DNA of 64,000 nucleotides from Candidatus Hydrogenedentota bacterium (GCA_019637335.1 JAHBVV010000001.1:813440-877439), one strand, 5' to 3'. Counted from the stretch's first letter, positions 12,528 through 52,762 are shown. A program made the numbers and translations. Notes: a model not told the origin generated them from the letters alone.

Positions 12528-12577
12528 CCGCCCGACCCAGACTAAACCTCCCTATACGAAGGTCTTAGCCCGCAGGT

Positions 12578-13999
12578 AGTATACCTGATCGGAGATTCCC
12601 CACAAACCACAGCAAGGGGTTAGTGTTTGGCACGGTTCCTGCTAGTATACCTGATCGGAGATTCCCCACAAACCACAGCTGGCCAGAGGGTCGCTTTTTG
12701 GCTCTGTAAAGTATACCTGATCGGAGATTCCCCACAAACCACAGCCGGCGCATCGCCAGGGGCCTCAAGCGCTACAGTATACCTGATCGGAGATTCCCCA
12801 CAAACCACAGCTGGCAGGCCCGCCTTAAATCCCAACGAGAGAGTATACCTGATCGGAGATTCCCCACAAACCACAGCCGCAAGGGCCGTGATCAGCGTGA
12901 TTGGCTAGAGTATACCTGATCGGAGATTCCCCACAAACCACAGCTGCACTTCACGCCTTGGGTTTCGAGGGCGGAGTATACCTGATCGGAGATTCCCCAC
13001 AAACCACAGCCAGTATCCCGCGCACGCGCGAGGGGAAGGAAGTATACCTGATCGGAGATTCCCCACAAACCACAGCTACAACATCCGTGACGCGTAAAAG
13101 TTCCGTAGTATACCTGATCGGAGATTCCCCACAAACCACAGCTGAGGTGCGACACTGCCTCACTTGCAAAAAGTATACCTGATCGGAGATTCCCCACAAA
13201 CCACAGCCCACCCCCATCACAACACCAATGGCAAGACAGTATACCTGATCGGAGATTCCCCACAAACCACAGCCAATCACTGCGTCTACAGCGCCCAGCT
13301 TCAAGTATACCTGATCGGAGATTCCCCACAAACCACAGCTGCACTCGCACACGAGGTTAAAGTCATCCAAGTATACCTGATCGGAGATTCCCCACAAACC
13401 ACAGCGACCGGTGTAGCGAATAGCTTCCGCTCCCAAGTATACCTGATCGGAGATTCCCCACAAACCACAGCAACGAGGCCATACACGAGTGGTGGGAGAA
13501 AAGTATACCTGATCGGAGATTCCCCACAAACCACAGCCTACTGTTACAGATTCCCCGCACCGATCCGAGTATACCTGATCGGAGATTCCCCACAAACCAC
13601 AGCCCTGGTCCCACGTTGGGCAGGTGGCGGAAGAGTATACCTGATCGGAGATTCCCCACAAACCACAGCCGGGCCAGAATGCAAAAATCCAGCAAAACCA
13701 GTATACCTGATCGGAGATTCCCCACAAACCACAGCGAGACGATAGCACTCAGGCTTGCGGACATTAGTATACCTGATCGGAGATTCCCCACAAACCACAG
13801 CGCAAGAATCCAAACTCCCGCGCGGACGCGGAGTATACCTGATCGGAGATTCCCCACAAACCACAGCGGCGTCGCCGGAATCCAGGGCGCCTATTGCAGT
13901 ATACCTGATCGGAGATTCCCCACAAACCACAGCATCAGTTTCATGTTCATTGTTTCACCCTTTAGTATACCTGATCGGAGATTCCCCACAAACCACAGC
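12578..13999 (-). CRISPR. type II-C CRISPR array, 22 repeats and 21 spacers
   Basis: Twenty-two copies of a 36-bp repeat occur at an exact 66-base period (first 12578-12613, last 13964-13999), giving 21 spacers of 30 bp. All repeats read identical, with no decayed end copy. On the minus strand the repeat starts GCTGTGGTTTGTGGGG and ends GATCAGGTATACT. The 5' half pairs with the tracrRNA, so crRNAs are made from the minus strand, opposite to cas9-cas1-cas2. The last six bases, TATACT, form a -10 box with TTGTGG 16 bases upstream, so each repeat can drive the next spacer, as known in Neisseria type II-C arrays. Spacer targets could not be searched here. Confidence 0.98.
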
Positions 14000-14042
14000 T
14001 CGCCGTTGCGCTGTCGCGCAACGGCTCGCTGTGGTTTGTGGG
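13985..14042. repeat. 58-bp near-perfect palindrome made from the last repeat and an inverted half-repeat
   Basis: The last 15 bases of the outermost repeat (13985-13999) are repeated in inverted orientation at 14028-14042. Between them is a second palindrome with 10-bp arms (14002-14011 and 14016-14025) and a four-base loop. The two stems are separated only by a TC step on each side. It lies at the upstream end of the array for minus-strand transcription. Confidence 0.9.
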
Positions 14043-14932: not shown

Positions 14933-15539
14933 CGCCTGGGGCGCCGCTGGCTGTCCGGCGCTCTTCTGGGGGCTCGCACGCTCAAGCCTTCGCGGCGGAG
15001 CCGCGGAGCTTGAACGTCGTAGATCCGCCGCAGGAGGATGGCGCCCGTGGCTCTTTTTGAAGTCTTATAGCAGCTACCGGCTGGTTAGTTTTTGGGGGTA
15101 CAGCCACCGGCTGGTTTGGGGCTGGTTGCTCCGGATGCGGGCTTGTTTGCCAGCCGGAGGCAGTCCCCTGGTTTGTTTTAGGGGTACAGCCACCGGCTGG
15201 TTTGGGGCTGGTTGCTCCGGATGGGAGCTTGTTTGCCAGCCGGATGCAGTCCCCTGGTTTGTTTTGGGGGTACAGCCACCGGCTGGTTTGGGGCTGTTTG
15301 CTCCGGACATGGGCTTGCTTGCCCGCCGGATGCAGTCCCCTGGTTTGTTTTTGGGGGTACAGCCACCGGCTGGTTTGGGGCTGTTTGCTCCGGACATGGG
15401 CTTGCTTGCCCGCCGGATGCAGTCCCCTGGCTTTTGGGGGTACAGCCACCGGCTGGTTTGGGGCTGGTTGCTCCGGATGCGGGCTTGTTTGCCAGCCGGA
15501 GGCAGTCCCCTGGGGCGCCAGCCGGATGCAGTCCCCTGG
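14933..15539. repeat. tandem array of about 86-bp units
   Basis: Five tandem units of 83-87 bp start at 15095, 15181, 15267, 15354 and 15437, each opening with GGGGTACAGCCACCGGCTGG and ending with CAGTCCCCTGG. A partial unit precedes them (from 15072) and a truncated one (15518-15540) touches the stop codon of the next gene. Within most units CCGGCTGG near the start is the inverse of CCAGCCGG near the end, so each can form a hairpin. The frames opened by the repeat are not proteins. Confidence 0.9.
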
Positions 15540-27829: not shown

Positions 27830-28144
27830 GTTGACAGTTGACAGTTGACAGTTGACAGTTGACGGTTGACGGTTGACGGTTGACGGTTGACGGTTGTCGG
27901 TTGACGGTTGACGGTTGTCGGTTGTCGGTTGGCGGTTGTCGGTTGGCGGTTGGCGGTTGGCGGTTGTCGGTTGACGGTTGACGGTTGACGGTTGACGGTT
28001 GTCGGTTGGCGGTTGGCGGTTGGCGGTTGTCGGTTGGCGGTTGTCGGTTGTCGGTTGGCGGTTGTCGGTTGTCGGTTGTCGGTTGGCCGTTGGCCGTTGG
28101 CGGTTGGCGGCTTTAGGCTTTAGGCTTTAGGCTGTGGGCTGTAG
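27830..28144. repeat. heptamer tandem repeat, 45 units in phase
   Basis: Forty consecutive seven-base units (27830-28109) share GTTG and vary only at the last three positions: GTTGACA x4, then mixtures of GTTGACG, GTTGTCG, GTTGGCG and two GTTGGCC. Five more units in the same phase follow: GCTTTAG x3, GCTGTGG, GCTGTAG. The array begins within three bases of the sulfatase stop codon. The remaining 100 bases to 28248 hold no gene. Confidence 0.97.
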
Positions 28145-28248
28145 GCCGAGTGTGCTGTTGGCGCGTGCTTGAAAAGCCTCGGTTTGACGGCTACACTTGC
28201 CGGAATACTCCTTTCTCGCAAAAAAACCAACCCTCCGAGGCTTGACGT

Positions 28249-37774: not shown

Positions 37775-39280
37775 ATGCGCCTCGCCACTTACTTGTTCCC
37801 ACTCGTTCTCGGCATGTTACTTGCCCTTCCGCACGGCGCCCTGGCGCAGGGGGCCTCCAACCCCATCGTCGAGGAAAACCGGAAGCCCGGCGCCAACGAT
37901 TGGCAGCTGACGCGCGCGCGCGTGGATAGCGGCGGTTTCCGGTCTCCCTGGATTGAGGGCTATTGCTCGAAGCAGAGCGTGAAGGCGGGCGAAACGATCG
38001 ATATCATGGTGTCGACGAATCCGCCGGTCCGCTTTGAGATCGAGGTTTTTCGCATGGGCTATTACGGCGGGAAGGGCGCGCGCCTCATGACAAAGCAGGG
38101 GCCGTTCGATGGCGTCACGCAACCCGACCCGGAGAAGGGCGATAAGGACCTGCACGAGTGCCAGTGGACGCCTTCGGCCTCCCTCACGATTCCGGAGGAC
38201 TGGCTGAGCGGGGTGTATCTGGGCCGGCTCACAACGCTGCCGGGTAGCGAGGAGCTCCCTTATTGGCAGAGCTATGTGATCTTTATCGTGACGGACGACC
38301 GGCCGGCCGATATTCTCTTTCAGTGTTCGGACAACACGTGGCAGGCGTATAACCGCTGGCCGAACAAGTACTCGGTGTACACGCACCCGAAGGGCGGGCA
38401 GGGCCCCTGGGCGGATGTGAGTTTTGATCGCCCCTACGGCTTCGAGGCGCAGAACACGAGCGTGGTCTATGCGCCGCTGACGATTGGCTCGGGCGAGTTC
38501 CTCCCTTTCGAGTTCCCGCTCGCCTACTGGCTCGAAAAGGAAGGCTTCGACGTCACCTACGCGAGCAACAGCGACATGCTTTCCCCGGATCGCGGGCTCA
38601 AGTGCAAGGCGTTCATCAGCGTGGGGCACGATGAGTACTGGGATATCCGCCAGTTCGACAGCGTCACCCGGATGCGCGACGAGGGCGTTGATCTGCTCTT
38701 TCTCTCCGGGAATTCCGTGTGCTGGGTGTCGCCGTTCCGGGAGAGCAGCGACGGGCGCCCGAACCGCATTATCTTCCGCGGCGGCCCCTACGGCGCGGAC
38801 AACTATTACGCCGTCGACCGCCAGCGCGATCATGGCCCCTTCCCGGAGCACGGCCCCGACGAGGGCCTGCTCATGGGCGCGCGCAACGTGGAGCCGGTCA
38901 ACGGCGGCGGCGACTGGATCATCCGGATGCCGGCGCACTGGATGTTCGAGGGCACGGGCGTGGAACAGGGCGATCGCATCCCCGGGCTCATCGGCTGGGA
39001 ATACCACGGGATGCCCGCCGACATCCCCGGTCTGGAGATCGTCGCCAGCGGGACGGCGTGGGTCGGCGGCGAAACGCCCCAGCAGTGGACCGCCACGATC
39101 TACCCCGGCCCCAAGGGCAACTTCGTCTTCAACGCCTCGTCCATCTTCTGGGTGCAGGGCCTGAGCTCGCCCCCCGGGCACGTGCTGCCGTGGTCGCACT
39201 GGAGCCGCCCCCACGGCCCGGATGAACGCGTGCAGCGGATGATGGAGAATTTGCTGGAGCGGGCATTGGGCGGGGAGTAG
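37775..39280 (+). CDS. dimethylformamidase-beta-subunit-like secreted protein
   Basis: A 501-residue protein with a signal peptide (YLFPLVLGMLLALPHGALAQ). It resembles the large-subunit C-terminal domain of N,N-dimethylformamidase, with ILFQCSDNTWQAYNRWPNK, VGHDEYWD and LSGNSVCWVSP as conserved-looking blocks. The family includes many secreted proteins of unknown activity. GGAAGG lies seven bases before ATG 37775; upstream codons come from the 87-bp repeat. The last 46 bases of the gene, plus eight more, are duplicated 9.1 kb downstream. Confidence 0.85.
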   Translation: MRLATYLFPLVLGMLLALPHGALAQGASNPIVEENRKPGANDWQLTRARVDSGGFRSPWIEGYCSKQSVKAGETIDIMVSTNPPVRFEIEVFRMGYYGGKGARLMTKQGPFDGVTQPDPEKGDKDLHECQWTPSASLTIPEDWLSGVYLGRLTTLPGSEELPYWQSYVIFIVTDDRPADILFQCSDNTWQAYNRWPNKYSVYTHPKGGQGPWADVSFDRPYGFEAQNTSVVYAPLTIGSGEFLPFEFPLAYWLEKEGFDVTYASNSDMLSPDRGLKCKAFISVGHDEYWDIRQFDSVTRMRDEGVDLLFLSGNSVCWVSPFRESSDGRPNRIIFRGGPYGADNYYAVDRQRDHGPFPEHGPDEGLLMGARNVEPVNGGGDWIIRMPAHWMFEGTGVEQGDRIPGLIGWEYHGMPADIPGLEIVASGTAWVGGETPQQWTATIYPGPKGNFVFNASSIFWVQGLSSPPGHVLPWSHWSRPHGPDERVQRMMENLLERALGGE

Positions 39281-39288
39281 GCGAGGCG
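39235..39288. repeat. 54-bp direct repeat, left copy
   Basis: The 3' end of the preceding gene (encoding MMENLLERALGGE) and eight further bases. It recurs at 48332-48385 in the same orientation with two mismatches. The two copies bound the histidine-rich metal-uptake block. Confidence 0.9.
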
Positions 39289-39491: not shown

Positions 39492-39521
39492 TTGACACGT
39501 GTCGGCGATACGTGGTATGTT
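39492..39521 (+). promoter_or_regulatory. promoter of the first His-rich gene
   Basis: Consensus TTGACA (39492-39497), 18 bases, TATGTT (39516-39521). The ten-base palindrome GACACGTGTC (39494-39503) overlaps the -35 box and could be an operator. The rest of 39289-39568 has no gene. Confidence 0.55.
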
Positions 39522-39568: not shown

Positions 39569-39952
39569 ATGCACGGAAGACTGGACATGAACCGCATTGC
39601 GGGCAGCCTAACGGCGCTGCTCGTGGCGGTTATTCTTGTCCAGCCATTTCTCTTGCCGATTCACCTTCTGGTTTCGCATGGTGCGGATCAGCACAGCCAT
39701 CACCACAAAGGCAGTGCGGGGGAAGCAAACTGGCGGGCCGTCAACTGTTCTGACGAAAATGAAGGCTTTTCGGCGGCCCATCATTGTCCGATCTGCGCGT
39801 CTTATTGTGCCAAAGGGCGTACCCAGGCTATTTGGACCAATACGACGGCCTTCTTCCCCGCTGCATTAGCGGTGGGGTATGCGGAATTCGCCGAGCGGAC
39901 CGCAAGCCTGCCCCTTTTCTCGGCTCCAGGCCGAGCCCCTCCCGTCGCTTAA
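39569..39952 (+). CDS. DUF2946-like His/Cys-rich membrane-anchored protein
   Basis: A 127-residue protein with an N-terminal hydrophobic segment (LTALLVAVILVQPFLLPIHLL). A metal-binding stretch follows, SHGADQHSHHHKG and AAHHCPICASYC, with a CxxC just after paired histidines. This is the pattern of DUF2946-type proteins, which often sit beside metal transport genes. The C-terminus is GRAPPVA. TTGGAG lies upstream of ATG 39569. It is a likely paralogue of the IS-split gene that follows: nearly equal length and the same ending. Metal binding is inference from composition. Confidence 0.75.
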   Translation: MHGRLDMNRIAGSLTALLVAVILVQPFLLPIHLLVSHGADQHSHHHKGSAGEANWRAVNCSDENEGFSAAHHCPICASYCAKGRTQAIWTNTTAFFPAALAVGYAEFAERTASLPLFSAPGRAPPVA

Positions 39953-40643
39953 CTCCCAAGCGACAACGTTTTAATCCTCCATTTTCCAGGCTTGCACGTT
40001 TTGTACGGTTGCGTACCGACGCTTAACTGAGCGCCCCGTCACAATGCATACCAAGCGGAACGTGACCAAATCCCCGCAACGTTGACAGGCGCAATGGCTC
40101 ATTGCATCCTGCGGGCGGTCCATTTGTGGAGATCGTTGTCCGCAGACGTTTTATCCATGATTGCGGTGTGATTTTACTGGCTTCTTGTGCGTGGGCGCCT
40201 GCGCGATTCGGGAAAACTCGAAACCCCAATTCTCCCGTTTGAGATTCAGGCTCGGCGTGCTCCGGAGAGCCCTGAATTCCATACGCCGCGTACGGAAAAG
40301 CCGCAATACTACACGTAAATCGGGCCATGAAGTTTACCGAGATTCGTAACAGCGTGAAACGGAATCGTGTCAGACATAGAGGATCTTCTGGTCCGGTCAT
40401 CTTGATGCACGTATTGCTGGTGGCGGCATTGCTCCAGTTAATGGCGCACCGCAGTCATGGACACGCCCCTGGCCCTGTGCCCATGTCCGGCGCCGCATTC
40501 GGCGAGTCATCCGATGGGCATAACCACAACGACCCTGCAGAGTCTGAAGTTACCCCCATTTTTTGGACAGGTGCTAAGTAAAGATTTGCCGGGTTGACCC
40601 GGCGGATCAGCACCCCGGACAATGTCCGGAAGGAGTTCGAGAA

Positions 40644-40922
40644 ATGGCTCAGAAGCGCAAGAATCACTCCCAGGAGTTCAAGGCGAAGGTGGCGCTGGAG
40701 GCGGTGAAGGGGGTGCACACGTTGAGCGAGCTGGCGTCGCGATACAAGGTGCATTCTACACAGATAGCGCAGTGGAAGAAGCAACTGCTTGAGAACGCTC
40801 CGCATTGCTTCGAGCGCGGGCGTTCGGGGGGTGTTGTGGACGCGGAGGCGCTGACCGCGCCTTTGTATCAGGAAATTGGCCGTTTGAAGATGGAGGTCGA
40901 CTTCCTCCAAAAAAAATACTGA
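40644..40922 (+). CDS. IS3-family transposase OrfA
   Basis: A 92-residue helix-turn-helix protein: HSQEFKAKVALEAVKG and LSELASRYKVHSTQIAQWK, then a coiled-coil end LYQEIGRLKMEVDFLQKK. It binds the IS ends. A run of eight A (40909-40916) just before its stop is the expected slippage site for a -1 shift into orfB, giving the full transposase. Confidence 0.93.
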   Translation: MAQKRKNHSQEFKAKVALEAVKGVHTLSELASRYKVHSTQIAQWKKQLLENAPHCFERGRSGGVVDAEALTAPLYQEIGRLKMEVDFLQKKY

Positions 40923-41758
40923 GCGCACCCGCATCTGAGCGTCGCGGCTGGGTCAACCACACGCACCCCGGCTTGTCGATTTCGCGGCAGTGCGCATTGC
41001 TTGGCGTATCACGTTCGAGCGTGTACTACACCCCCAATAGAAGCGAATCCGAAGAGAATCTGGCCCTGATGCGGCTCATCGACGAGGAATATCTCCGGCG
41101 CCCCTTCTACGGCGTCCCGCGCATAACACACTGGCTCAACAGCCAGGGCTGGGAAGTTAACCACAAGCGCGTGGCGCGGCTCATGCGGCTCATGGGGCTG
41201 CAGGCCACACTGCCCGGCCCGCACACGAGCAAGCCGCACCCGGAGCACACGATCTACCCATATTTACTGCGGAATCTCGTCATATCCGTGCCCGACGCGG
41301 TGTGGTGCGCCGACATCACGTACATTCCGATGTACAGAGGCTTCATGTACCTCGTGGCGGTCATGGACTGGTTCAGCCGCTACGTGCTGACGTGGGAGCT
41401 CTCCAACACACTGGAGGCCAGCTTCTGCACGCACGCGCTGGAGCGGGCCCTGGAGGGCGCCTGTCCGGCCATCTTCAACACGGACCAGGGCAGCCAGTTC
41501 ACGAGCGCGGAATTCACCGGCGCGCTGCTGGGGCGGGACATACGCATCAGCATGGACGGACGCGGACGGGCGCTGGACAATGTGTTCATCGAGCGGCTCT
41601 GGCGAAGCGTAAAGTACGAGGACATCTACCTGCGCGAATATGCCGACGGCCGCGCGCTGCACGAAGGACTGTCGGCGTACTTCCAATTCTACAACCACGA
41701 ACGCCCTCACGACGGGCTGGGCAAGCGGACACCGGCCTATGTCTACCAGAATGGCTGA
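40914..41758 (+). CDS. IS3-family transposase OrfB (DDE integrase), read after -1 frameshift
   Basis: Catalytic part of the transposase. It has HTH_21-type IDEEYLRRPFYGVPRITHWL and the rve integrase core with the DDE triad in VWCADITYIPM, FNTDQGSQFTS and VFIERLWRSVKYE, ending NHERPHDGLGKRTPAYVY. No lesion is visible, so it should be active. It is open from 40805 in the -1 frame, but like other IS3 elements it is made as an OrfA-OrfB fusion through the A8 slippery run. I give the start at the shift point; its own start codon is unclear. Confidence 0.9.
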
Positions 41759-42349
41759 CCCCACGGAAAAATCGCGCGCTTATTTGGGCCGCTCCGCTCC
41801 GGCCTTGCCCTTCGGGCATTCCGCCTTCGGCGGAAACGGCCTCCGCTCCGCGGCCCAAATAAGCGTCCCCAGCTCGGAGGCATTGCCCCAACCCCGGGGG
41901 GACTGCTACGATGTCCGGAGGTAGACCGTATCTGCCACCGTACTAGGACATCTTAATTCACCCCGGTACCTGTCGAAGGATGGGGGTAAGCTCAGTCCGG
42001 CTGTGAACTTTGCATCGTCGCCTCTGGTTTGAAGGCGACGGCCTCATTCACCCTACCCCTTCCTTTCACGCGCCTGGGCAGCATGCTGACCCACCCGGCG
42101 TTCCGCTACGTGTCGCTAGCTTCCTACGGCCCGTGGCTGGGCCGCGCCCCTCCCGTCGTTTCCTGAATCCCTTTGACACTCGAGTTGTCCCTCCAGGGAG
42201 AAGTCTGCTCGGTCGCGCCCTGTTCTGCGGCGTGAAACCGTCCGAAGTTCAGAAGCATTCGCTTGTCGAAGGTCGCACGCACCCAAACGTGGTGTTGCGG
42301 GCGCACCGTTGCCGCGAGCTTACCCATGACACGAATGGAGTTAGATTCA

Positions 42350-43651
42350 ATGAAAACAATTCTACAACCAATACAACTATTCGCTCTCTTTTGCATTGCC
42401 GTGCAGCTAGTCGGGTGCCCGCTGCCTCCACCCCCTGAGCATCCCGATTTGCTCGGCGAATGGCAGCGGCGAAGTCCCGTAGACGCCCATCAATGGGAGG
42501 CGGAGCAAATACATTTTGCATCCGGAACTGAAGTCTACTACTTCGGGAGCTTCGGCGGCCCAAACAGCTTTGTGGACACCAAGCAGGGCGGAGACTTTCC
42601 TGTCTATCCCGCCTTCCGCGGCACCTATGTGGTGGACGAGACGGCCGAGCCGATTGCCATCGATTTCACTTGGACCGATTACTGGCCCAGCGCCGAGGGT
42701 GGGCAAGATGCCAGTTTCGAGCCATTTACGCAGGTCGCCATATTGGATACCATTCTGGACGGCCACGGCGACCACAGTCACGAGTTGCTGTACATTAACT
42801 TCGGCGATTCGGTTACCCGGCCAACCAACTGGCATGGTGAAATCAAGTTCGAGCGGATTGCGCATGGAGATCACGACGACCACCTGCCGACCACCGCGGA
42901 GGTGTATCTTCAGGGCGGTACGGAGCGCCTGGCGGATGTTCATGGTGACCACTGGCATGGCCGCATCGAGCTTGAACTGGGCGCCTCGCTCGAGTTCGAT
43001 GTTCGTTTTCTCAACGACGAGGGGGACGAAATTCTGCTCGACGCGAACTTCACAATGAGCGCCGAAATTGCACCGGGCTACCCGACGGACATTGCCCAGA
43101 TAGTAGCCCACGGCGATCACTTCGATGTGGAAGGGCTGGCTGCGGGCGAGACGCGCATCGTCATCCACTTCCTGCACGACGGGCATATCGAGTGGAGCAC
43201 GCCCGCGCTGCGGGTGATCGTCCACGAAGCCGACGAGCACGAGCACGAGCACATGCCCGTGTCGGCGGACGTCTACCTCCGGGGCACGGAGGACCGCCTC
43301 GCCGACATGCACGGCGACCACTGGCACGGCCGCATCGAGCTGCAAGTGGGCGAGAGCGTCGAGTTGGATGCCGTATTCGTGAACGCGGCGGGCGGCATGA
43401 TTGCCCTGGGCGGCGAGCATAGCCTGGCGGTCGAGATCGCGCCCGAACGGCCTACGGGCATCGCGGGCGTCGTAGCCCACGGCGATCACTTCGATGTGGA
43501 AGGGCTGGCTGCGGGCGAGACGCGCATCGTCATCCACTTCCTGCACGACGGGAACATCGAATGGAGCACCCCCGCGCTGCGGGTGATCGTGCACGAACCC
43601 GACGAGGAACACGGGCACGGCGATGATCACGGGCACGATCACGACCACTAG
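42350..43651 (+). CDS. His-rich lipoprotein with two tandem metal-binding-like domains
   Basis: A 433-residue lipoprotein (signal ending CIAVQLVGCPLPPPPE). The N-terminal 180 residues contain GHGDHSHELL. Two copies of a roughly 123-residue unit start at about residues 183 and 306, each with ADVHGDHWHG or ADMHGDHWHG and VAHGDHFDVEGLAAGETR. The C-terminus is HGHGDDHGHDHDH. This suggests a periplasmic zinc-binding or buffering protein that feeds the transporter encoded downstream. GGAG lies about nine bases before ATG 42350. A GC-rich hairpin (43685-43718) follows the gene. No exact family match can be named. Confidence 0.85.
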   Translation: MKTILQPIQLFALFCIAVQLVGCPLPPPPEHPDLLGEWQRRSPVDAHQWEAEQIHFASGTEVYYFGSFGGPNSFVDTKQGGDFPVYPAFRGTYVVDETAEPIAIDFTWTDYWPSAEGGQDASFEPFTQVAILDTILDGHGDHSHELLYINFGDSVTRPTNWHGEIKFERIAHGDHDDHLPTTAEVYLQGGTERLADVHGDHWHGRIELELGASLEFDVRFLNDEGDEILLDANFTMSAEIAPGYPTDIAQIVAHGDHFDVEGLAAGETRIVIHFLHDGHIEWSTPALRVIVHEADEHEHEHMPVSADVYLRGTEDRLADMHGDHWHGRIELQVGESVELDAVFVNAAGGMIALGGEHSLAVEIAPERPTGIAGVVAHGDHFDVEGLAAGETRIVIHFLHDGNIEWSTPALRVIVHEPDEEHGHGDDHGHDHDH

Positions 43652-43684
43652 CGGCATAGTTGCGGTCTGAATCGGGTATTGAGC

Positions 43685-43718
43685 GGGCCAGCCACTTCCG
43701 ATGTGGCGTGGCTGGCCC
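43685..43718 (+). terminator. hairpin after the His-rich lipoprotein gene
   Basis: GGGCCAGCCAC (43685-43695) and GTGGCTGGCCC (43708-43718) form a perfect 11-pair stem with a 12-base loop. No U tract follows, so it may stabilise the mRNA end rather than terminate on its own. Confidence 0.55.
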
Positions 43719-43752
43719 CGACAATTGTACGTCGTTTAAGCAATGACAACAT

Positions 43753-43767
43753 GCCATGTCACATGGC
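43753..43767. promoter_or_regulatory. 15-bp palindrome before the His-tail peptide gene
   Basis: GCCATGT-C-ACATGGC, a perfect palindrome around one central base, located just before the AAGGA ribosome binding site of the 58-residue gene. It is a candidate operator for a metal-responsive regulator. It does not match the classic Zur box. Confidence 0.35.
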
Positions 43768-43785
43768 GATATAAGGAATTACATC

Positions 43786-43962
43786 ATGCACATTAAGCCA
43801 GTAAGCCGTCCGGAATCCGCGAGCCTTCGATCGACTTTCGAGTTGACCCTGCTTTTTCTCGACATTGTGCACTCTACAATGGCTGCCCTCCGCAAGGAGC
43901 CCTTTGACGGTGGCCACAACCATGACGATGATCACGATCACGATCACGGCCACACGCACTGA
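43786..43962 (+). CDS. 58-residue protein with a histidine/aspartate tail
   Basis: Small protein: a 40-residue body (STFELTLLFLDIVHSTMAAL) and the tail GGHNHDDDHDHDHGHTH. AAGGA lies eight bases before ATG 43786. The body has one amphipathic or hydrophobic helix but no clear signal peptide. The tail could carry zinc, nickel or copper. It sits between the His-rich lipoprotein and the His-loop porin and is probably part of the same system. It is not recognised as a known family. Confidence 0.7.
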   Translation: MHIKPVSRPESASLRSTFELTLLFLDIVHSTMAALRKEPFDGGHNHDDDHDHDHGHTH

Positions 43963-44083
43963 ACCAAGTCTTGCCGCACGTATCCAGCCGGGATCTTGCC
44001 CTCGCCGAGCTGCGTTTCCCGGAGCTTGAGCATGTATATGCGGCTCTGCGGGACCTGTGGCAACTTCGATAAGGAATGTGAAA

Positions 44084-45544
44084 ATGACAAAACCAGCATT
44101 GAGGCGCATCACCCTATGCGCCGCGTTGGCCTTTGGTCCGGCGGCATGGGCGGGCGCCCAGGATTCTGACCTCGATACACTCAAAGAAAACGTCCATTTG
44201 CTTCAACAACAAATGCAACAGATGCAGGAGGCGCATCAGGAAGAATTGCGCCAGCTCCGTCAGGAGGTTGAAGTTCTACGGCAGCGTCCGGCGCCGCCGG
44301 ATCCCGCGATCGAGCGTGATTTCGCCGACGCCTTGGAAGAGGAATCCAAGTCCGCGCCGCAACCGACGCTTATGGACAACATTCGGACGGGCGGGCGAAT
44401 TTCACTCAGCAATTACATGGACATCTCGGCGAACGTGGACATGGTCGGGCGGCTGCACTCGAACAGCCTGCGGCGGAACCGCGAATACCTGGATGTGCGC
44501 CACGTCGAACTGGGGCTCTCGGGCGCGGTGGACCCCTACGGCAAGTTTGTGATGTACCTCGGCATGCATCCCGGGCACGGCCACGACCACGGCCACGATC
44601 ACGGGCCCGTTTCCGGCAGTTTTCCGCGTTTCAGAAGCCCGACCGTCAACGCGCTGGCCGAGAGTATAGACAATCTGTTTGGCTGGTTTTGGGAGAACAG
44701 GTACTGGCACCCGCGCGAGCACGGGCACGACGACTGGGAACTGGATGTCGAGGAGGCCTACTTTACCTTCGACAAGCTGCGCTACAACCTTCAGCTTAAG
44801 GTGGGCAAGTTCAAGGCCAATCTCGGCAAAGCCAACCAGGATCACCTGCACTCCCTGCCGTGGACCGACTACCCGCTTGCGCTGCAATACAATTTCGGCC
44901 CCGAGGGCCTGGCGGGTATAGGCGCGTCGCTGAGTTGGATGATACCCAATCCCTGGGACCACTATGCGTTGCTTACCTATGAGGCGTTCAAGAACGATAA
45001 TCCAGGTGTTTTCGCCGGTAGCGACGCCACCGACTTGACCCACCTGGTGAACCTCAAAAACTTCTGGAGTATCGGCGACGAGTCCACGCTTGAGCTCGGG
45101 TTAAGTGCCGCGTGGGGGCCGAACGACCACCGGCACGGAGGAAACGCGACCTGGCTGCAGGCCGTGGATTTGACCTACCGCTGGCGTCCCTTGGATGAAT
45201 CCCTCTATCGCTCATTCCTCTGGCAGACGGAGGCGTTCTTCGTGCAAAAGGATGTGCCGGACAATGAGAGCATGGACACCTACGGTTGGTTCACGGGCAT
45301 GGAGTACCAGTTCGCGCGGCGCTGGTCGGCGGGCCTGCGCTATGATTTCGCGCAATGGCCCGACGACGACCGCTTTCGCGAGCACAACTACCAAATCTAC
45401 ACCACGTTCCGGCAGAGCGAGTTCGCCTACTGGCGGCTCGGGTACCGGCACCGCGACCCGAACTTCGGAAGCAAATACGACGACAATGAGATCTTCCTCC
45501 AGTTGAATGTCTCTCTCGGGGCGCACGGCGCGCATAAGTACTGA
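44084..45544 (+). CDS. outer-membrane porin-like protein with His-rich loop
   Basis: A 486-residue protein with a signal peptide (ALRRITLCAALAFGPAAWAGAQ). A coiled coil follows (LKENVHLLQQQMQQMQEAHQ), as in trimeric or peptidoglycan-linked porins, then many amphipathic beta strands to the C-terminus. A loop near residue 165 reads HPGHGHDHGHDHGPV, and REHGHDDWELD comes later. The fold suggests an OprO/P-like barrel, and the loop suggests metal capture at the surface or channel mouth. AAGGA lies eight bases before the ATG. The zinc-type ABC transporter genes follow directly. Confidence 0.8.
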   Translation: MTKPALRRITLCAALAFGPAAWAGAQDSDLDTLKENVHLLQQQMQQMQEAHQEELRQLRQEVEVLRQRPAPPDPAIERDFADALEEESKSAPQPTLMDNIRTGGRISLSNYMDISANVDMVGRLHSNSLRRNREYLDVRHVELGLSGAVDPYGKFVMYLGMHPGHGHDHGHDHGPVSGSFPRFRSPTVNALAESIDNLFGWFWENRYWHPREHGHDDWELDVEEAYFTFDKLRYNLQLKVGKFKANLGKANQDHLHSLPWTDYPLALQYNFGPEGLAGIGASLSWMIPNPWDHYALLTYEAFKNDNPGVFAGSDATDLTHLVNLKNFWSIGDESTLELGLSAAWGPNDHRHGGNATWLQAVDLTYRWRPLDESLYRSFLWQTEAFFVQKDVPDNESMDTYGWFTGMEYQFARRWSAGLRYDFAQWPDDDRFREHNYQIYTTFRQSEFAYWRLGYRHRDPNFGSKYDDNEIFLQLNVSLGAHGAHKY

Positions 45545-45583
45545 TTAGAAGTCCGAACATGCGAATTGCAAGGAGTTTTGGGT

Positions 45584-46618
45584 ATGCGACTTACTAAGCC
45601 GTCTGCGGTCCATTCTTGGCTGCTGGCATTTTCGATTCTGGCGTTGGCGCTGAACGCCTCGGCGCAGCTCCGCATCGTTACCACCACCACCGACCTCAAG
45701 TCCCTTGCGGAAGCCGTCGGCGGGGAACTCGTCACCGTAACCTCGCTGGGGACGGGCAAGGAGGACATTCACCAATTGGCGGCGAAGCCGAGCTATATGG
45801 TTGCGGCAAACAAGGCGGATCTTTGGATCCGCCAGGGCCTCGAACTCGAAATCGGCTTCGAACCGTTAATACTGGAGGGCGCGCGAAACCCGGATATCCA
45901 AATCGGGCGCCGGGGACATTTGGAAGCGTCTATTGGCGTGCGGGTGCGGGACGTTCCGACCGTGCCCGTGGACCGCTCCCTCGGCGATGTCCATCCGATG
46001 GGCGATCCCCATGTGCAATCGGACCCTCTCAACGGGCGGATCATGGCGAAGAACATCCGCGATCGGCTGGCCGACCTGGATCCCGCGAACGCGGACACGT
46101 ACACCGCCAACCTCGCCGAGTTCTATGCGCAACTCGACACGGCGATGTTTGGCGAGGCATTGGTTCGGGAATTCTCCGGCGAAGTACTGTGGGCGCAGCA
46201 GCAAGGCGGCGCCTTGGACGCCTTCCTGAAGGAACGTGGCCGCGAAGCCGGCGGGTGGTTGGCGCATATGGCGCCCCACCGGGGGGCGCGGCTGGTGACC
46301 TACCACCGAAGCTGGGGCTATTTTGCGGACCGCTTCGGGCTGGAGGTCATCGGCGAACTCGAGCCGAAGCCCGGAATCCCCCCCACGGCGCGGCACCTGG
46401 CGCAACTGGTAGAACGCATGCAGGCGCTCGGTTGCAAAGTCGTTCTCATGGAACCGTATTATAGCCAGAAGGCTCCCCAACTTGTTGCCGCCCGTACTGG
46501 CGCGGAGGTGGTCGCGGTTGGCAACATGGTGGGATCGGAACCCGCGGCGTCCGGCTACATCGCGATGATAGATAACATCGTCAAGCAACTGTCGCAGGCA
46601 TTTTCGGAAGTATATTAA
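45584..46618 (+). CDS. ZnuA-type metal ABC transporter substrate-binding protein
   Basis: A 344-residue periplasmic protein of the cluster A-I (Zn/Mn) family. It has a signal peptide (LLAFSILALALNASAQ), then LRIVTTTTDLKSLAEAVGG. Candidate metal ligands are histidines in GKEDIHQLAAKP, MGDPHVQSDPLNG and TYHRSWGYFADRFG, with MEPYYSQKAPQ later. It lacks the long acidic His loop of typical ZnuA, a role perhaps taken by the separate His-rich proteins upstream. AAGGAG lies eight bases before ATG 45584. The ATPase gene starts 11 bases after it. Confidence 0.9.
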   Translation: MRLTKPSAVHSWLLAFSILALALNASAQLRIVTTTTDLKSLAEAVGGELVTVTSLGTGKEDIHQLAAKPSYMVAANKADLWIRQGLELEIGFEPLILEGARNPDIQIGRRGHLEASIGVRVRDVPTVPVDRSLGDVHPMGDPHVQSDPLNGRIMAKNIRDRLADLDPANADTYTANLAEFYAQLDTAMFGEALVREFSGEVLWAQQQGGALDAFLKERGREAGGWLAHMAPHRGARLVTYHRSWGYFADRFGLEVIGELEPKPGIPPTARHLAQLVERMQALGCKVVLMEPYYSQKAPQLVAARTGAEVVAVGNMVGSEPAASGYIAMIDNIVKQLSQAFSEVY

Positions 46619-46628
46619 GGAACAGCGT

Positions 46629-47447
46629 GTGGTTTTCTCGCCCAAGGCGCACCCAGAACAAACCGTCCCCCATGTCTCGGCCGGCCATGGACCGGCCGGG
46701 GCGCCCGTGACAGACAACGTCGCTGTGTACTTTCGGCGGCTCTGTCTGGGCTACGGAGGCGCCCGGGTGTTGGATAATATTGACCTGGACATACCGGAAG
46801 GGGCGTTCCTGCCCTTCGTGGGCCCCAACGGTGGCGGGAAGACTACGCTCCTCCGGAGCATTCTCGGTTTCGTCAAGCCCGAGCACGGCGAAATCGGCTT
46901 CGGTAGGCCCGAGATCAAGCTCGGGTACGTGCCTCAGCAAAAGTCTATCGATCCGCTCTTTCCGGTGTCATTGCGACAGATTGTCACTATGGGCCTGTAT
47001 CGTGAACTCGGCTATTGGCGCCGCCCCGACAAGACCCACAGGGCGTTTGTATCGGCGCAGTTGGAGGAAATGGGCCTGGCGGAACACGAGCACAAAAACT
47101 ACCGCGAACTTTCCGGCGGCATGAAGCAAAAAGCGCTGATTGCCCGCGCCCTGGTTTCCGGGGCGGATGTGCTCATCCTCGACGAGCCGACGTCAGAACT
47201 GGATACGCCGTCCGAGCGGGACATCATCCATCAACTCCTCCGGCTCTGCAGGGAGCAGGGGAAGACTGTGCTGATCGCCTGCCACGGGATCCAGATGGCC
47301 CTTAGCGTGGCTGATCGCGTCTGCCTCGTCGAGCGCTCGCAGGCCCAGATCGTGCCGACGGCCGTAGCCTGCCATTTTACGGCAGCCAATCTCCACTTCG
47401 AAATGCCCCCCGCCGAACCGAGGGTGCAGGGGGCCGACCATGCCTGA
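46629..47447 (+). CDS. metal ABC transporter ATPase (ZnuC-type)
   Basis: A 272-residue ATPase with Walker A GPNGGGKTT, Q-loop VPQQKSIDPLFPVSL, signature LSGGMKQKALIARAL and Walker B VLILDEPTSELD. VPQQKSID is characteristic of the Zn/Mn importers. The GTG at 46629 follows AAGGA; a GTG at 46707 is an alternative that would remove a poorly conserved 26-residue lead. The 3' end overlaps the permease gene by eight bases. Confidence 0.92.
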   Translation: MVFSPKAHPEQTVPHVSAGHGPAGAPVTDNVAVYFRRLCLGYGGARVLDNIDLDIPEGAFLPFVGPNGGGKTTLLRSILGFVKPEHGEIGFGRPEIKLGYVPQQKSIDPLFPVSLRQIVTMGLYRELGYWRRPDKTHRAFVSAQLEEMGLAEHEHKNYRELSGGMKQKALIARALVSGADVLILDEPTSELDTPSERDIIHQLLRLCREQGKTVLIACHGIQMALSVADRVCLVERSQAQIVPTAVACHFTAANLHFEMPPAEPRVQGADHA

Positions 47448-48288
47448 CGACTTGCTTGTGCTCTTTGAGGTCTTTCCCTACGCCATCGCCGCCGGACTGA
47501 TCATCTCAACGGTCTGCGCGCTCCTGGGGGTCTTCGTGGTGCTGAAGCGGGTCGTCTTCATCGGAATTACGTTGTCGCAAACAGCCGCCGCGGGCATAGC
47601 CCTTGCCTTCCTGCTGGGCCTGCCTTCTATGTTGGGCGCAGGCGTGCTCACCATGCTGACCGTTGTTATGCTTGCTATTCCCTACGAATCGCGACGCGTA
47701 CCACGGGACGCCGCGCTGGGGGCCGCTTTCCTGTTTTCATCGGCGCTCAGCATTCTCATCGTGTCTAAGAGCGGATTCGGTTTGGCGGAGGTACAGGCGC
47801 TACTTTACGGGGACCTCATCGTGACCAGCGCGCGCGATTTCCGCAATGTCATGTGGTTCCTGGCGCCGGTGCTCGTTGTGTTCCTCGCCTTCTTGCGACC
47901 GATCTATTGCGTCTTCCTCGACCGCGACCAGGCGGTAGTTCTCGGTCTTCGCGCGGGCGTATGGGAGTTACTCTTTTTCTGCCTGCTCGGCCTTGCGACC
48001 TCCGGCGCCTCGAAGGTGGGCGGCGCGCTGCTCGTGTTCAGCTACCTCACCGTACCCGCCATGATTGGCCTCATGCACGCCTCCCGGCTTTCCTCAGTCA
48101 TGGCCGTCAGCGTCGCCGTGGCGTTGCTGGCCACGATAGCAGGTATCTACGTGTCCTATATTACAGATCTTCCTACAAACCAGGTTATCATCGTGCTCCA
48201 GTGCCTCATGCTGGTGGCGGGGGTCCTGGTCCGGGCGGCTCTTCCCTTCGCGTGGCGTGTGCGAACGTCATGGCCGCGCGCGCGCTGA
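47440..48288 (+). CDS. metal ABC transporter permease (ZnuB-type, ABC-3)
   Basis: A 282-residue membrane protein with about eight hydrophobic spans. It begins YAIAAGLIISTVCALLGVFV and contains GITLSQTAAAGIAL and VGGALLVFSYLTVPAMIGLM, the ABC-3 family pattern. It is translated from an ATG within the end of the ATPase gene. It completes an A-C-B operon and is the last gene before the right 54-bp repeat. Zn against Mn or Fe cannot be decided from sequence; the His-rich neighbours favour zinc. Confidence 0.92.
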   Translation: MPDDLLVLFEVFPYAIAAGLIISTVCALLGVFVVLKRVVFIGITLSQTAAAGIALAFLLGLPSMLGAGVLTMLTVVMLAIPYESRRVPRDAALGAAFLFSSALSILIVSKSGFGLAEVQALLYGDLIVTSARDFRNVMWFLAPVLVVFLAFLRPIYCVFLDRDQAVVLGLRAGVWELLFFCLLGLATSGASKVGGALLVFSYLTVPAMIGLMHASRLSSVMAVSVAVALLATIAGIYVSYITDLPTNQVIIVLQCLMLVAGVLVRAALPFAWRVRTSWPRAR

Positions 48289-48736
48289 TGACGATCCTCG
48301 TCCTGCCCTGCTACGGAGTCGGTGGCGGTGCGCGGATGATGGAGAATTTGCTGGAGCAGGCGTTGGGCGGGGAGTAGGCGAGGCGCAAATGCAGCCTGCG
48401 AGCTGCGACACTGTGAGTTAGCCCTTGGATCTGACGCAAGGCGTGGCCGGGATGTTCTGAGTTGTTTGGGCATACCAAGGAAAGCCACAGAATGTAAGTC
48501 AGGCGTCTCGCCTGTCTCTCCGCGCCGCAGGGCGCGGAAACACAGGAACGGTCGCGCCATCCTGAAGTCAGGGCGTGCCGATTGGTCCATCAACCGTCCT
48601 GCGACAGGCGGTCGTTGCGTCGTGCTGGAGGCAATGCGGGCGGTCCGCTTGCGGCGGACCTGCGGGTTTGTCCCCGGCAGCATTTCGGCCTGCCGTGCTC
48701 CATGCGTTGCGAAAGCGCAATTGCGCACCCCTGCGC
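48289..48736. repeat. right boundary of the metal block: 54-bp repeat and non-coding DNA
   Basis: The 54-bp direct repeat (48332-48385) matches 39235-39288 with two mismatches. It would encode MMENLLEQALGGE, the last residues of the dimethylformamidase-like protein, but no such gene is attached. The rest, 48386-48736, shows no supported gene and has the look of degraded intergenic repeat DNA. Confidence 0.85.
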
Positions 48737-49559: not shown

Positions 49560-49873
49560 GTGACAGCCGGTGTCGCTGCCGCTCAAAACACACGACCGCA
49601 CGCTCGCCAACTCGCCTCCGGCCCGGGCCGTGTACCGAGGGTTCACTTGTATTGCCCGCGGATCGTCTCGTGAACCTGCTTCCAGTCGTGTAGATCGGCC
49701 TCTCGCTTCCGAAGCGCCACCGAACGGCGCCGGAGGGCAACAAAGAGGGCGTCCAGGCCCTCCTCGCTGATTATTTCGGTGTGCCGCCCGTTTTCGAGGT
49801 CCTCTATGCCCTTCTGGACGTCCGCGCGGAGGCGTTCCAGCTTCGTGCGCTCATCGTCAAGCTGCGACCTCAA
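49560..49873 (-). pseudogene. chimeric toxin-antitoxin remnant
   Basis: A 76-residue frame (TTG 49873 with GGAGGAA upstream, stop at 49643). Its first part (TKLERLRADVQKGIEDLENG) copies the middle of the ParD-like antitoxin encoded at 50244-50564. Its last 19 residues (EADLHDWKQVHETIRGQYK) copy the C-terminus of the other antitoxin at 52535-52762. It is followed by the decayed start of a RelE/ParE toxin (VNPRYTARAGGELA, compare MNLRYTARAGGELE at 52538). Bases 49608-49711 align with 52501-52603. It is probably a recombination product, and may or may not be expressed. Confidence 0.7.
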
Positions 49874-49876
49874 GAT

Positions 49877-50269
49877 TCATTCCTCCTCGTCTGAAAGAAA
49901 TGCCTCATCGCCGTATAGGTGACTCTCCGGGATGTGTTGCTCCATAAGCATTGCGTCGTGAAGGATGCGGCTGACACCAACGAAGTCTCCAGACAGCGAA
50001 ACGTATACGATAATATGGTGTGAACGCTTAACCCCAGTCCCACTGCGCTTTCGGCTCAGTTCTACGCGATATGATCGAAACCTCTCACCAAGCACGGGCC
50101 GCGCTTGGCTATCCGGTCGCTCGGGTTCGTCGTCGATATCTCTTAGTGCTTGTGCAATCAATAATTTGTAGCGAACCGCTTGTTCCGGGCCAAATAGTCT
50201 GCGCGAAGTGGCCTGTATGGCGACCAAGTCCTGTCTGGCCGCGCTACTGAATTTCAGTCGCCGATACAC
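49877..50269 (-). CDS. RelE/ParE-superfamily toxin
   Basis: A 130-residue toxin with the family layout: MYRRLKFSSAARQDLVAIQ, a helical pair, then a strand-rich end RSHHIIVYVSLSGDFVGVSRILHD. It is expected to inhibit gyrase or translation. It overlaps the 3' end of the ParD-like antitoxin gene by 26 bases and is its cognate partner by position. A copy of its C-terminal coding part survives at about 52130-52246. Confidence 0.85.
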   Translation of the reverse strand: MYRRLKFSSAARQDLVAIQATSRRLFGPEQAVRYKLLIAQALRDIDDEPERPDSQARPVLGERFRSYRVELSRKRSGTGVKRSHHIIVYVSLSGDFVGVSRILHDAMLMEQHIPESHLYGDEAFLSDEEE

Positions 50270-50564
50270 GTTGACGCTCGTTCTCTACGATTTCCTCGGC
50301 TTCCCGGTCGATCCCATCCAAGAACGCGTCCAGTTCCTCATCACTGTTGACCTCGGTGTACCTCCCGTTCTCCAGGTCGTCCATGCCCTTCTGCACCTCC
50401 GCGCGGAAACGTTCCAGCTTCGCGCGCTCGGTCGCCTCCTGTCGTTCGAGCAGATGCAGGCCCGCCAGCACCACCTCCCGCTCGTTGCCGTAGCGGCCTT
50501 CCGATACGCAACGGCGGACATATTCCCTTTCGTGCTCGGGCAAATCCAAGTGTTCTACCGCCAT
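50244..50564 (-). CDS. ParD-like antitoxin
   Basis: A 106-residue protein with a ribbon-helix-helix-type N-terminus (LDLPEHEREYVRRCVSEG, NEREVVLAGLHLLERQE) and a long charged helix containing ERAKLERFRAEVQKGMDDLENG. AGGAGG lies seven bases before the ATG. A -10-like TATAAT is present on the minus strand at 50630-50625, overlapping the end of the hydrolase gene, so the pair may have its own promoter. Confidence 0.85.
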   Translation of the reverse strand: MAVEHLDLPEHEREYVRRCVSEGRYGNEREVVLAGLHLLERQEATERAKLERFRAEVQKGMDDLENGRYTEVNSDEELDAFLDGIDREAEEIVENERQRVSATEIQ

Positions 50565-51528: not shown

Positions 51529-52256
51529 GACGGCGGCTCCTCGACACCATCATACCCTTCGGGCACGATAGACGGAAGGGGTATCCACAATGAAACCTTG
51601 GATGCGCTTTCGGTGCATTGCAGGCGGGGACGCCCTCCTGTGGCGTGTCTTCGAGCTGCGCCCCGGCTGTAAAGAAGGACGGGCGTCTCACCTATATCAC
51701 ACAGGTCAAAGGCCTCTCGGGCCGGGCCGCCTTTCGCGAGGGTGCGCACTTTTACGGCCGGTGGTTGCGAGATGCTCCAGTCGGGACATACCGCCGCGTC
51801 AGCGGCCTCCTCCGCATTTTTTTTGGGCGCCGTTCTGACATTACCGCGCCCGGATTATTTGGAAGTAAGAATAGTCCCGATTTTTGCAGTTCGCCGGAAA
51901 CCCACTATGATACGGGCTTTCAGCCCTGGCCGAAATCGTCGTCATTCTTCCTGGGCCTGCGGCCCAGGCTGGTATGATCGGCGCCTTCGGCGCTGAAGAA
52001 ACGATTTTCAGGGTCGAAGGTCAGTTTCCGAGCAGACCGGGCCCGCAGCCCCGGTAAAGGGAGCCTATAGGCATTGACGGCGAAAGGCCCGCTCCATAGC
52101 GCCGGCAATTCATCGGCAATATCAATTGCCGCACCCCGCCATATCGGTAACTCTCCGGGATGTGTTGCTCCGTAGGCATCGCGCCGTGATGGATGCGGCT
52201 GACACCAACGAAGTCTCCAGACAACGGCACGTTGACGAAAACATGGCGTGGAGGCT
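51529..52256. repeat. non-coding region with a ParE remnant
   Basis: Most of 51529-52130 shows no gene; 51940-52000 has words such as CCTGGGCCTGCGGCCCAGG that look like dispersed intergenic repeats. From about 52130 to 52246, minus strand, the sequence matches the 3' part of the ParE-like toxin gene (49914-50018). It encodes PLSGDFVGVSRIHHGAM and TEQHIPESYRYGG, so it is a truncated copy. It directly follows the stop of the RelE-like gene. Confidence 0.75.
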
Positions 52257-52538
52257 TCAGGGGCGATTACGCGGATCCCGGCGGTTGTCGAATATGGCGT
52301 GAACCACGATCCGCTCAAGCTCGACTTCGAAGTAAATTGAGAATGGAAAGCGCTCGACCACACACCGCCTCAGATTACCCTGAACGAGCGGATAGATTTC
52401 CGGGGCTTTCCGAATCCGGTCAAGCGAAATCTCAACGCAGTCCAGGAATTCCAATCCCAAGCCCGCTCGCTGCAATTCGTACCAGGCGACGGCAAGCTCC
52501 AACTCGCCACCGGCTCGCGCCGTGTACCGAAGGTTCAC
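52257..52538 (-). CDS. RelE/ParE-like toxin
   Basis: A 93-residue toxin of the RelE/ParE superfamily: LRYTARAGGELELAVAWYE, then FLDCVEISLDRIRKAPEIYP and a strand-rich end RFPFSIYFEVELERIVVHAIF. The start overlaps the antitoxin stop by four bases. It is a complete partner for the addiction-module protein upstream. Confidence 0.9.
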   Translation of the reverse strand: MNLRYTARAGGELELAVAWYELQRAGLGLEFLDCVEISLDRIRKAPEIYPLVQGNLRRCVVERFPFSIYFEVELERIVVHAIFDNRRDPRNRP

Positions 52539-52762
52539 TTGTATTGCTCGCGGATCGTCTGGTGAACCTGCTTCCAGTCGTGTAGATCGGCCTCTCCCGT
52601 CCGATGCGCGTGCAATCGGCGCTCCAGTTCACTTCGATGCCACTCCGGCATCGGAAGAGCGTGGTTGTCGGCAGCGATTGAATCCCAGACGTCCTCGACG
52701 AGCAGCAACTTATCGGCGAGATCAAGCTTTCCTATTTCATTTTTCAGTTGTTCGATGGTCAT
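52535..52762 (-). CDS. addiction-module antitoxin
   Basis: A 75-residue protein of the short addiction-module type usually found with RelE/ParE toxins: IEQLKNEIGKLDLADKLLLV, EDVWDSIA, then a C-terminal helix with HDWKQVHQTIREQYK. I start at ATG 52762; the longer frame to 52831 lacks a ribosome binding site. The last 19 codons are the source of, or share a source with, the chimeric remnant at 49.6 kb. Confidence 0.88.
   Translation of the reverse strand: MTIEQLKNEIGKLDLADKLLLVEDVWDSIAADNHALPMPEWHRSELERRLHAHRTGEADLHDWKQVHQTIREQYK

Follow-up and report, generated by a model that had tools for sequence, protein, structure and literature searches.

Our analysis suggests that a block of adjacent genes in a Candidatus Hydrogenedentota genome probably encodes a high-affinity importer of the ZnuABC/AztABC type, most likely for zinc, equipped with its own porin and with His-rich envelope proteins that we propose to act as a relay. 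The block lies in the window (the whole 64,000-nt stretch of DNA that was analysed), which comes from a 7.16-Mb assembly (G000). The original prediction had described eight plus-strand genes at 39569-48288, seven of them intact and one broken, forming an envelope pathway for zinc capture, and this anatomy and its coordinates were confirmed exactly. The features of the block and its borders are as follows:

39235-39288, no strand: left copy of a 54-nt direct repeat, located at the 3' terminus of the DMFA2_C-domain gene that lies upstream
39492-39521, plus strand: promoter-like TTGACA-N18-TATGTT 5' of the first gene, read from the sequence, with a merely degenerate operator-like element, CGATACGTGGTATG
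39569-39952, plus strand: DUF2946/DUF6153-like His/Cys membrane-anchored small protein, 127 aa, C-terminus GRAPPVA
40327-40549, plus strand: 5' portion of a second His-rich gene of DUF2946-like type, split by the IS3 element
40550-41989, plus strand: IS3-family element (Pfam HTH_Tnp_1, rve, HTH_21), with orfA at 40644-40922 and the orfB reading frame at 40805-41758, both on the plus strand; its inverted ends, read from the sequence, are imperfect (TTACCCCCAT...)
42136-42166, plus strand: what is probably left of the 3' end of the broken gene, coding for ...GRAPPVVS-stop, from a repeat match and the layout of the C-terminus
42350-43651, plus strand: lipoprotein, 433 aa
43786-43962, plus strand: 58-aa protein with a hydrophobic segment and a His/Asp tail ending in HGHTH
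44084-45544, plus strand: porin-like outer-membrane protein, 486 aa, with a coiled coil at its N-terminus and a His-rich loop, HPGHGHDHGHDHG, as an insert
45584-46618, plus strand: ZnuA-type (cluster A-I) binding protein with His at three ligand positions and without a long His loop
46629-47447, plus strand: ABC ATPase, nearest to AztA/ZnuC
47440-48288, plus strand: ABC-3 family permease, nearest to AztB/ZnuB
48332-48385, no strand: right copy of the 54-nt direct repeat

The importer core is the best-defined part of the block. A ZnuA-family binding protein (Pfam ZnuA, 167 bits), an ABC-3 permease (150 bits) and an ATPase matching the ABC ATPase family stand together in one operon, which bears out the predicted importer of zinc type. 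The closest curated NCBIfam models are AztC, AztA and AztB for the binding protein, ATPase and permease, respectively, all matched below their cut-offs (93 against 350 bits, 173 against 220 and 117 against 280). In alignment, the first three ligand positions of the binding protein are His (in EDIH, DPH and TYH), and the usual Asp is absent from the fourth; the third position is also His in ZnuA, whereas it is Glu in YfeA. From these residues and families, the metal would most likely be zinc. The binding protein lacks the His loop, as predicted, yet this is ordinary: G000 has three cluster A-I binding proteins, all of them without a long loop (the ZnuA-type protein on C36 has no loop and the third, at C1:720 kb, a short one), so that the absence of the loop says little by itself.

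Among the accessory proteins, the lipoprotein matches no family in Pfam or NCBIfam. It had been described as a two-domain His-rich lipoprotein; the His-rich character holds, but there are more parts than two. A lipobox, LVGC, after which the next residue is Pro in all four relatives, is followed by an N-terminal domain of ~140 aa (~residues 30-170), two Ig-like His repeats (residues ~180-300 and ~303-420) and a His/Asp tail. The repeats are roughly 110 residues long, the two copies are 68% identical, and their conserved residues include DHWHG, HGDH and HxG. AlphaFold (AF2) predictions of the repeat domain from six sequences gave a best model with pLDDT 87.5 and pTM 0.78, and four others with pLDDT 60-76; a model of the whole lipoprotein (pLDDT 40) was set aside. 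In a Foldseek search of the PDB, the repeat model resembled Ig-like folds (the Rib long domain, SbsC, lambda gpV and LigB, E 3e-5 to 2e-4), known metal-transfer proteins were not among its top matches, and no Pfam Ig family passed its cut-off for the repeat. The repeat is therefore predicted to be a novel domain with an Ig-like beta-sandwich fold. Rib, SbsC, gpV and LigB are structural or adhesive, whereas the repeat has conserved His residues and sits in metal proteins. A sequence search of the PDB with profiles of the repeat and of the N-terminal domain returned chance-like matches only, e.g. SPT5 and interferon gamma, and no family matched the N-terminal domain, for which a lipocalin- or ZinT-like barrel had been considered.

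The repeat also occurs outside the phylum. In two spirochaete MAGs (L011 and L013) it lies within ZnuA-type proteins, immediately ahead of the second ligand His, which is the position of the His loop; the operons of both also carry permeases and an ATPase, and the L011 protein matches Pfam ZnuA at 196 bits. In a haloarchaeal MAG (L012) it is fused to a NosL-domain protein. These fusions support a link of the repeat to metal handling, and the repeat itself may bind metal. They also lend some weight to the original idea that the function of the His loop had been moved to separate proteins, against which stands the ordinary absence of the loop. Within the phylum, the repeat is absent from the other 67 genomes, including those that have the same operon, and would thus be inessential to the system. 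It was not found on plasmids.

The smaller accessory proteins are harder to place in families. The first gene matches Pfam DUF6153 below the cut-off (E 4e-4, 21.6 bits against 27.7), and DUF2946 was not matched above its Pfam cut-off. Its layout, with a His-rich segment, Cys-x-x-Cys and a RAPPxA C-terminus, is shared with the small genes that neighbour related porins and is typical of DUF2946. The 58-aa protein matches no family in Pfam or NCBIfam, and its strong matches are confined to G000, G041 and G043. It is nevertheless more than a chance reading frame, since it recurs in two further genomes and its substitutions fall most often at the third codon position (20, 10 and 38 substitutions at positions 1, 2 and 3), an excess expected of a translated gene. 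The porin-like barrel is weakly BBP2-like by Pfam and NCBIfam, and the His-rich loop predicted for it is present as an insert.

Conservation of the block was assessed in a phylum sample of 68 species genomes from one order. The N-terminal domain of the lipoprotein was found in three other genomes (G041, G043 and G011), all outside the window's family. In G041 (locus L014, another family), a lipoprotein with a long His tail is followed by a 63-aa His-tail protein, a porin with the same His-rich insert, a binding protein and an ATPase, after which the contig stops; the last four are 60%, 71%, 66% and 61% identical to their counterparts in the block. G043 has the lipoprotein and the small protein, followed by the first part of the porin, and G011 has the lipoprotein at a contig end. 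The original prediction held that the proposal would fall if the cluster were confined to this genome; co-occurring genes are in fact kept in others. Moreover, a porin of the block's family lies directly upstream of the binding protein in the eight genomes with enough contig. Distant porins in other families (27-31% identical) lack the His-rich insert, and at each of the seven loci whose contig is long enough (L037-L041, L043 and L044) a ZnuA-type binding protein lies directly 3' of the porin, with one or two ABC-3 permeases after it. Directly before the porin, six of these seven have a His-rich, membrane-anchored small gene with Cys-x-x-Cys and a C-terminus of RAPPAA or similar, and no ABC ATPase was detected near the porin in any of the seven. 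From this pattern of neighbours, the conserved core is the small DUF2946-like gene, the porin, the binding protein and the permease, to which the type of operon found in the block adds the ATPase, the lipoprotein, the 58-aa protein and the His-rich insert. Its recurrence in distant relatives makes it likely that the set is a genuine route of metal capture.

The relatives also provide a hint about regulation. An inverted repeat, GATAAYGCRTTATC, lies 5' of the lipoprotein in G041, G043 and G011, with 0, 1 and 0 mismatches, respectively, and overlaps a TTGACA-N17-TATCAT promoter of the relatives' lipoprotein operon; the chance expectation at the three loci, from shuffles, is 0.001. The repeat is predicted to be a Fur-family-type operator. 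The same repeat was found 5' of Zrg-like operons at five of the 12 loci looked at (exact in G051 and G022, one mismatch in G047, G016 and G059; chance expectation under 0.01). These operons contain an ATPase, a MacB/FtsX-type permease with a His-rich loop and a DUF3299 protein, whose best PDB match is a weak one (E 0.029) to 4hsp, the structure of PA4066, a homologue of ZrgE (PMC8561739, PMC9820375). In Vibrio, zrgABCDE, in which zrgE encodes the DUF3299 protein, serves zinc uptake, is induced by zinc limitation and is repressed by Zur (PMC9817125). Given the shared operator and the control of Vibrio zrg by Zur, the best reading is that the relatives' operon is co-regulated with the zinc operon by a Zur-like protein, as we infer from the sites. 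In G041 the operator also precedes an unrelated-looking glycosidase-like gene. A motif search found no operator of this type in G000 or near the block, and no motif is common to the block and G000's own Zrg-like operon. The proposed zinc-capture pathway thus gains from the conserved cluster, the zinc-type pump and the operator that its relatives have in common with Zrg-like zinc-transporter operons, but G000 has no such operator.

We propose that the parts of the block work in sequence. Divalent metal would enter via the porin, whose His-rich insert would concentrate it locally around the pore; at the membranes it would be held by the DUF2946-like anchors, the Ig-repeat lipoprotein and the 58-aa His-tail protein; and the ZnuA-type protein would collect it from these carriers and hand it over to the ABC permease and ATPase, with the Ig-like repeats standing in for the His loop of other ZnuA proteins. 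A relay from porin to carriers to binding protein is plausible. We infer that the metal is zinc, that each carrier binds it, in which direction and sequence it is passed on, and that the system is active in G000. A bolder version is a full zinc relay from the outer to the inner membrane, in which the ZnuA His loop has moved to a metal-binding Ig-like family and to anchored His tails, the porin with its His loop is dedicated to the task, and the DUF2946-like gene, porin, binding protein and permease form an undescribed core of the phylum. We hold this version only tentatively, as one that may be right but is more likely to be wrong.

The original prediction also stated that no named system has this set, which is too strong. 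AztABCD of Paracoccus denitrificans and Citrobacter koseri is a zinc ABC importer of cluster A-I in which an additional periplasmic protein passes zinc to the binding protein (PMC6689063), and the Azt models are the nearest for all three ABC parts of the block. However, AztD is a beta-propeller, to which no block protein has a match in Pfam or NCBIfam; the block instead has the Ig-repeat lipoprotein, the 58-aa protein, the DUF2946-like anchors and the porin. Similarly, in ZnuABC with ZinT and in AdcA, a ZnuA-ZinT fusion, an accessory zinc carrier aids the binding protein and is fused to it in some lineages (PMC6689063). The block shares the ABC families of these systems, but no ZinT family match was found in it and its carrier domains match no known family. 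ZrgABCDE and PA4063-PA4066 likewise pair an ABC transporter with a periplasmic zinc protein rich in His, and Zrg-like operons have an operator in common with the block's relatives, whereas Zrg has ZrgA and a permease of the MacB/FtsX type where the block has an ABC-3 permease and a ZnuA-type protein; ZrgA, the MacB/FtsX-type permease and the DUF3299 protein are absent from the block, and a Zrg-like permease is encoded elsewhere in G000. Parts of the block also match TIGR03770, 03771 and 03772 below cut-off. These models describe metal-type ABC parts that adjoin an anchored repeat protein, but the block lipoprotein has no match to an anchored-repeat model. By these features the block is neither AztABCD nor ZrgABCDE: its importer core is known, its particular set is unnamed, and its accessory set, of which we found no description in the literature searched, is apparently undescribed.

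The same machinery could be at work with the His-rich proteins as passive envelope buffers or sponges for metal, and not as a relay, and with the porin as a general channel. The His/Asp tails of the carriers differ in length and composition among relatives, and the His-rich region of ZrgA is dispensable in V. cholerae (PMC9820375), both of which speak for a buffer. However, the repeat inside ZnuA-type proteins at the His-loop site and the conserved gene order suggest a direct coupling to the importer, and we consider passive buffering unlikely. An importer for another divalent metal (manganese, iron, nickel or copper) appears improbable to us. Cluster A-I proteins include manganese and iron binders, the NosL protein to which the repeat is fused belongs to a copper family, and DUF2946 genes of Caulobacter form part of an efflux operon or neighbour a TonB-dependent receptor (PMC4176598), whereas the His at the third ligand position is as in zinc binders and the operator is common with Zrg-like operons.

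A further concern is whether the block still functions in G000. The flanking 54-nt repeats are 95-96% identical and occur in only two copies in the genome, and in three same-genus genomes the DMFA2_C-domain gene is present and the block, the lipoprotein and a close porin are absent. The block was thus probably acquired, possibly from a lineage similar to G041. When the repeat was examined as an insertion scar, no cleanly empty site appeared, as the gene after the upstream gene differs in each same-genus genome. Base composition also favours acquisition: the GC content is 60% in the block (55% in its first part) against 62-64% in the flanks, and its GC3 is 0.61-0.77 against 0.85 in the upstream gene. 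Such an origin, together with the IS3 element that breaks one gene and sits between the first promoter and the lipoprotein gene, and with the missing operator, would fit a decaying island without present function. This is very unlikely in our estimation, however, since all other frames are intact and the core genes overlap by 8 nt (ATPase and permease) or lie 39 nt (porin and binding protein) and 10 nt (binding protein and ATPase) apart. We therefore retain an importer with a proposed relay as the preferred reading.

The way in which free zinc passes the outer membrane and is delivered to ZnuA-type proteins is poorly known, and the outer-membrane zinc routes in the literature searched are TonB-dependent receptors. 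A porin gene that consistently adjoins a zinc-type binding protein, together with His-rich carriers as proteins of their own, opens a porin-plus-relay route to testing. The three undescribed families, namely the N-terminal domain of the lipoprotein, the metal-linked Ig-like domain and the 58-aa His-tail protein, would likely have a shared role.

Cassettes encoding a porin, a binding protein and an ABC-3 permease, the porin being a distant relative of the block's porin and the binding protein being of the ZnuA type, were found in seven genomes (loci L037, L038, L039, L040, L041, L043 and L044), and an ABC ATPase gene was not detected near the cassette at any of these seven loci. The Zrg-like operon, a zinc-transporter type that in five genomes shares the GATAAYGCRTTATC operator with the lipoprotein operons of relatives, is present, as judged by its permease, in 56 of the 68 species genomes of the phylum set. 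One example is arranged as follows:

L088:1011-3962, ATPase, FtsX-type permease with a His loop, and DUF3299 protein

An exact copy of GATAAYGCRTTATC also lies at L084:3184 in G041, a relative carrying the lipoprotein operon, upstream of a gene for a 1050-aa protein that by eye is glycosidase-like and whose link to zinc is not evident. The Ig-like His domain of the block's lipoprotein also occurs in a haloarchaeon, fused to a NosL-domain protein (L012:9221-10342).

Elsewhere in the window, some 20 copies of a unit of about 36 nt, AGTATACCTGATCGGAGATTCCCCACAAACCACAGC, recur at 66-nt spacing in 12573-14000, separated by 30-nt stretches that differ from one another, which looks like a CRISPR array. 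An 86-nt unit is repeated five times in tandem at 15081-15513 with matches of about 92%, and at 27830-28146 some 40 copies of GTTGACG, a 7-nt unit, are followed by GGCTTTA units. Downstream of the block, small minus-strand genes occur in duplicate (49607-50564 and 52137-52622), and by eye they resemble a toxin-antitoxin pair, with RelE/ParE-like and ParD-like members.
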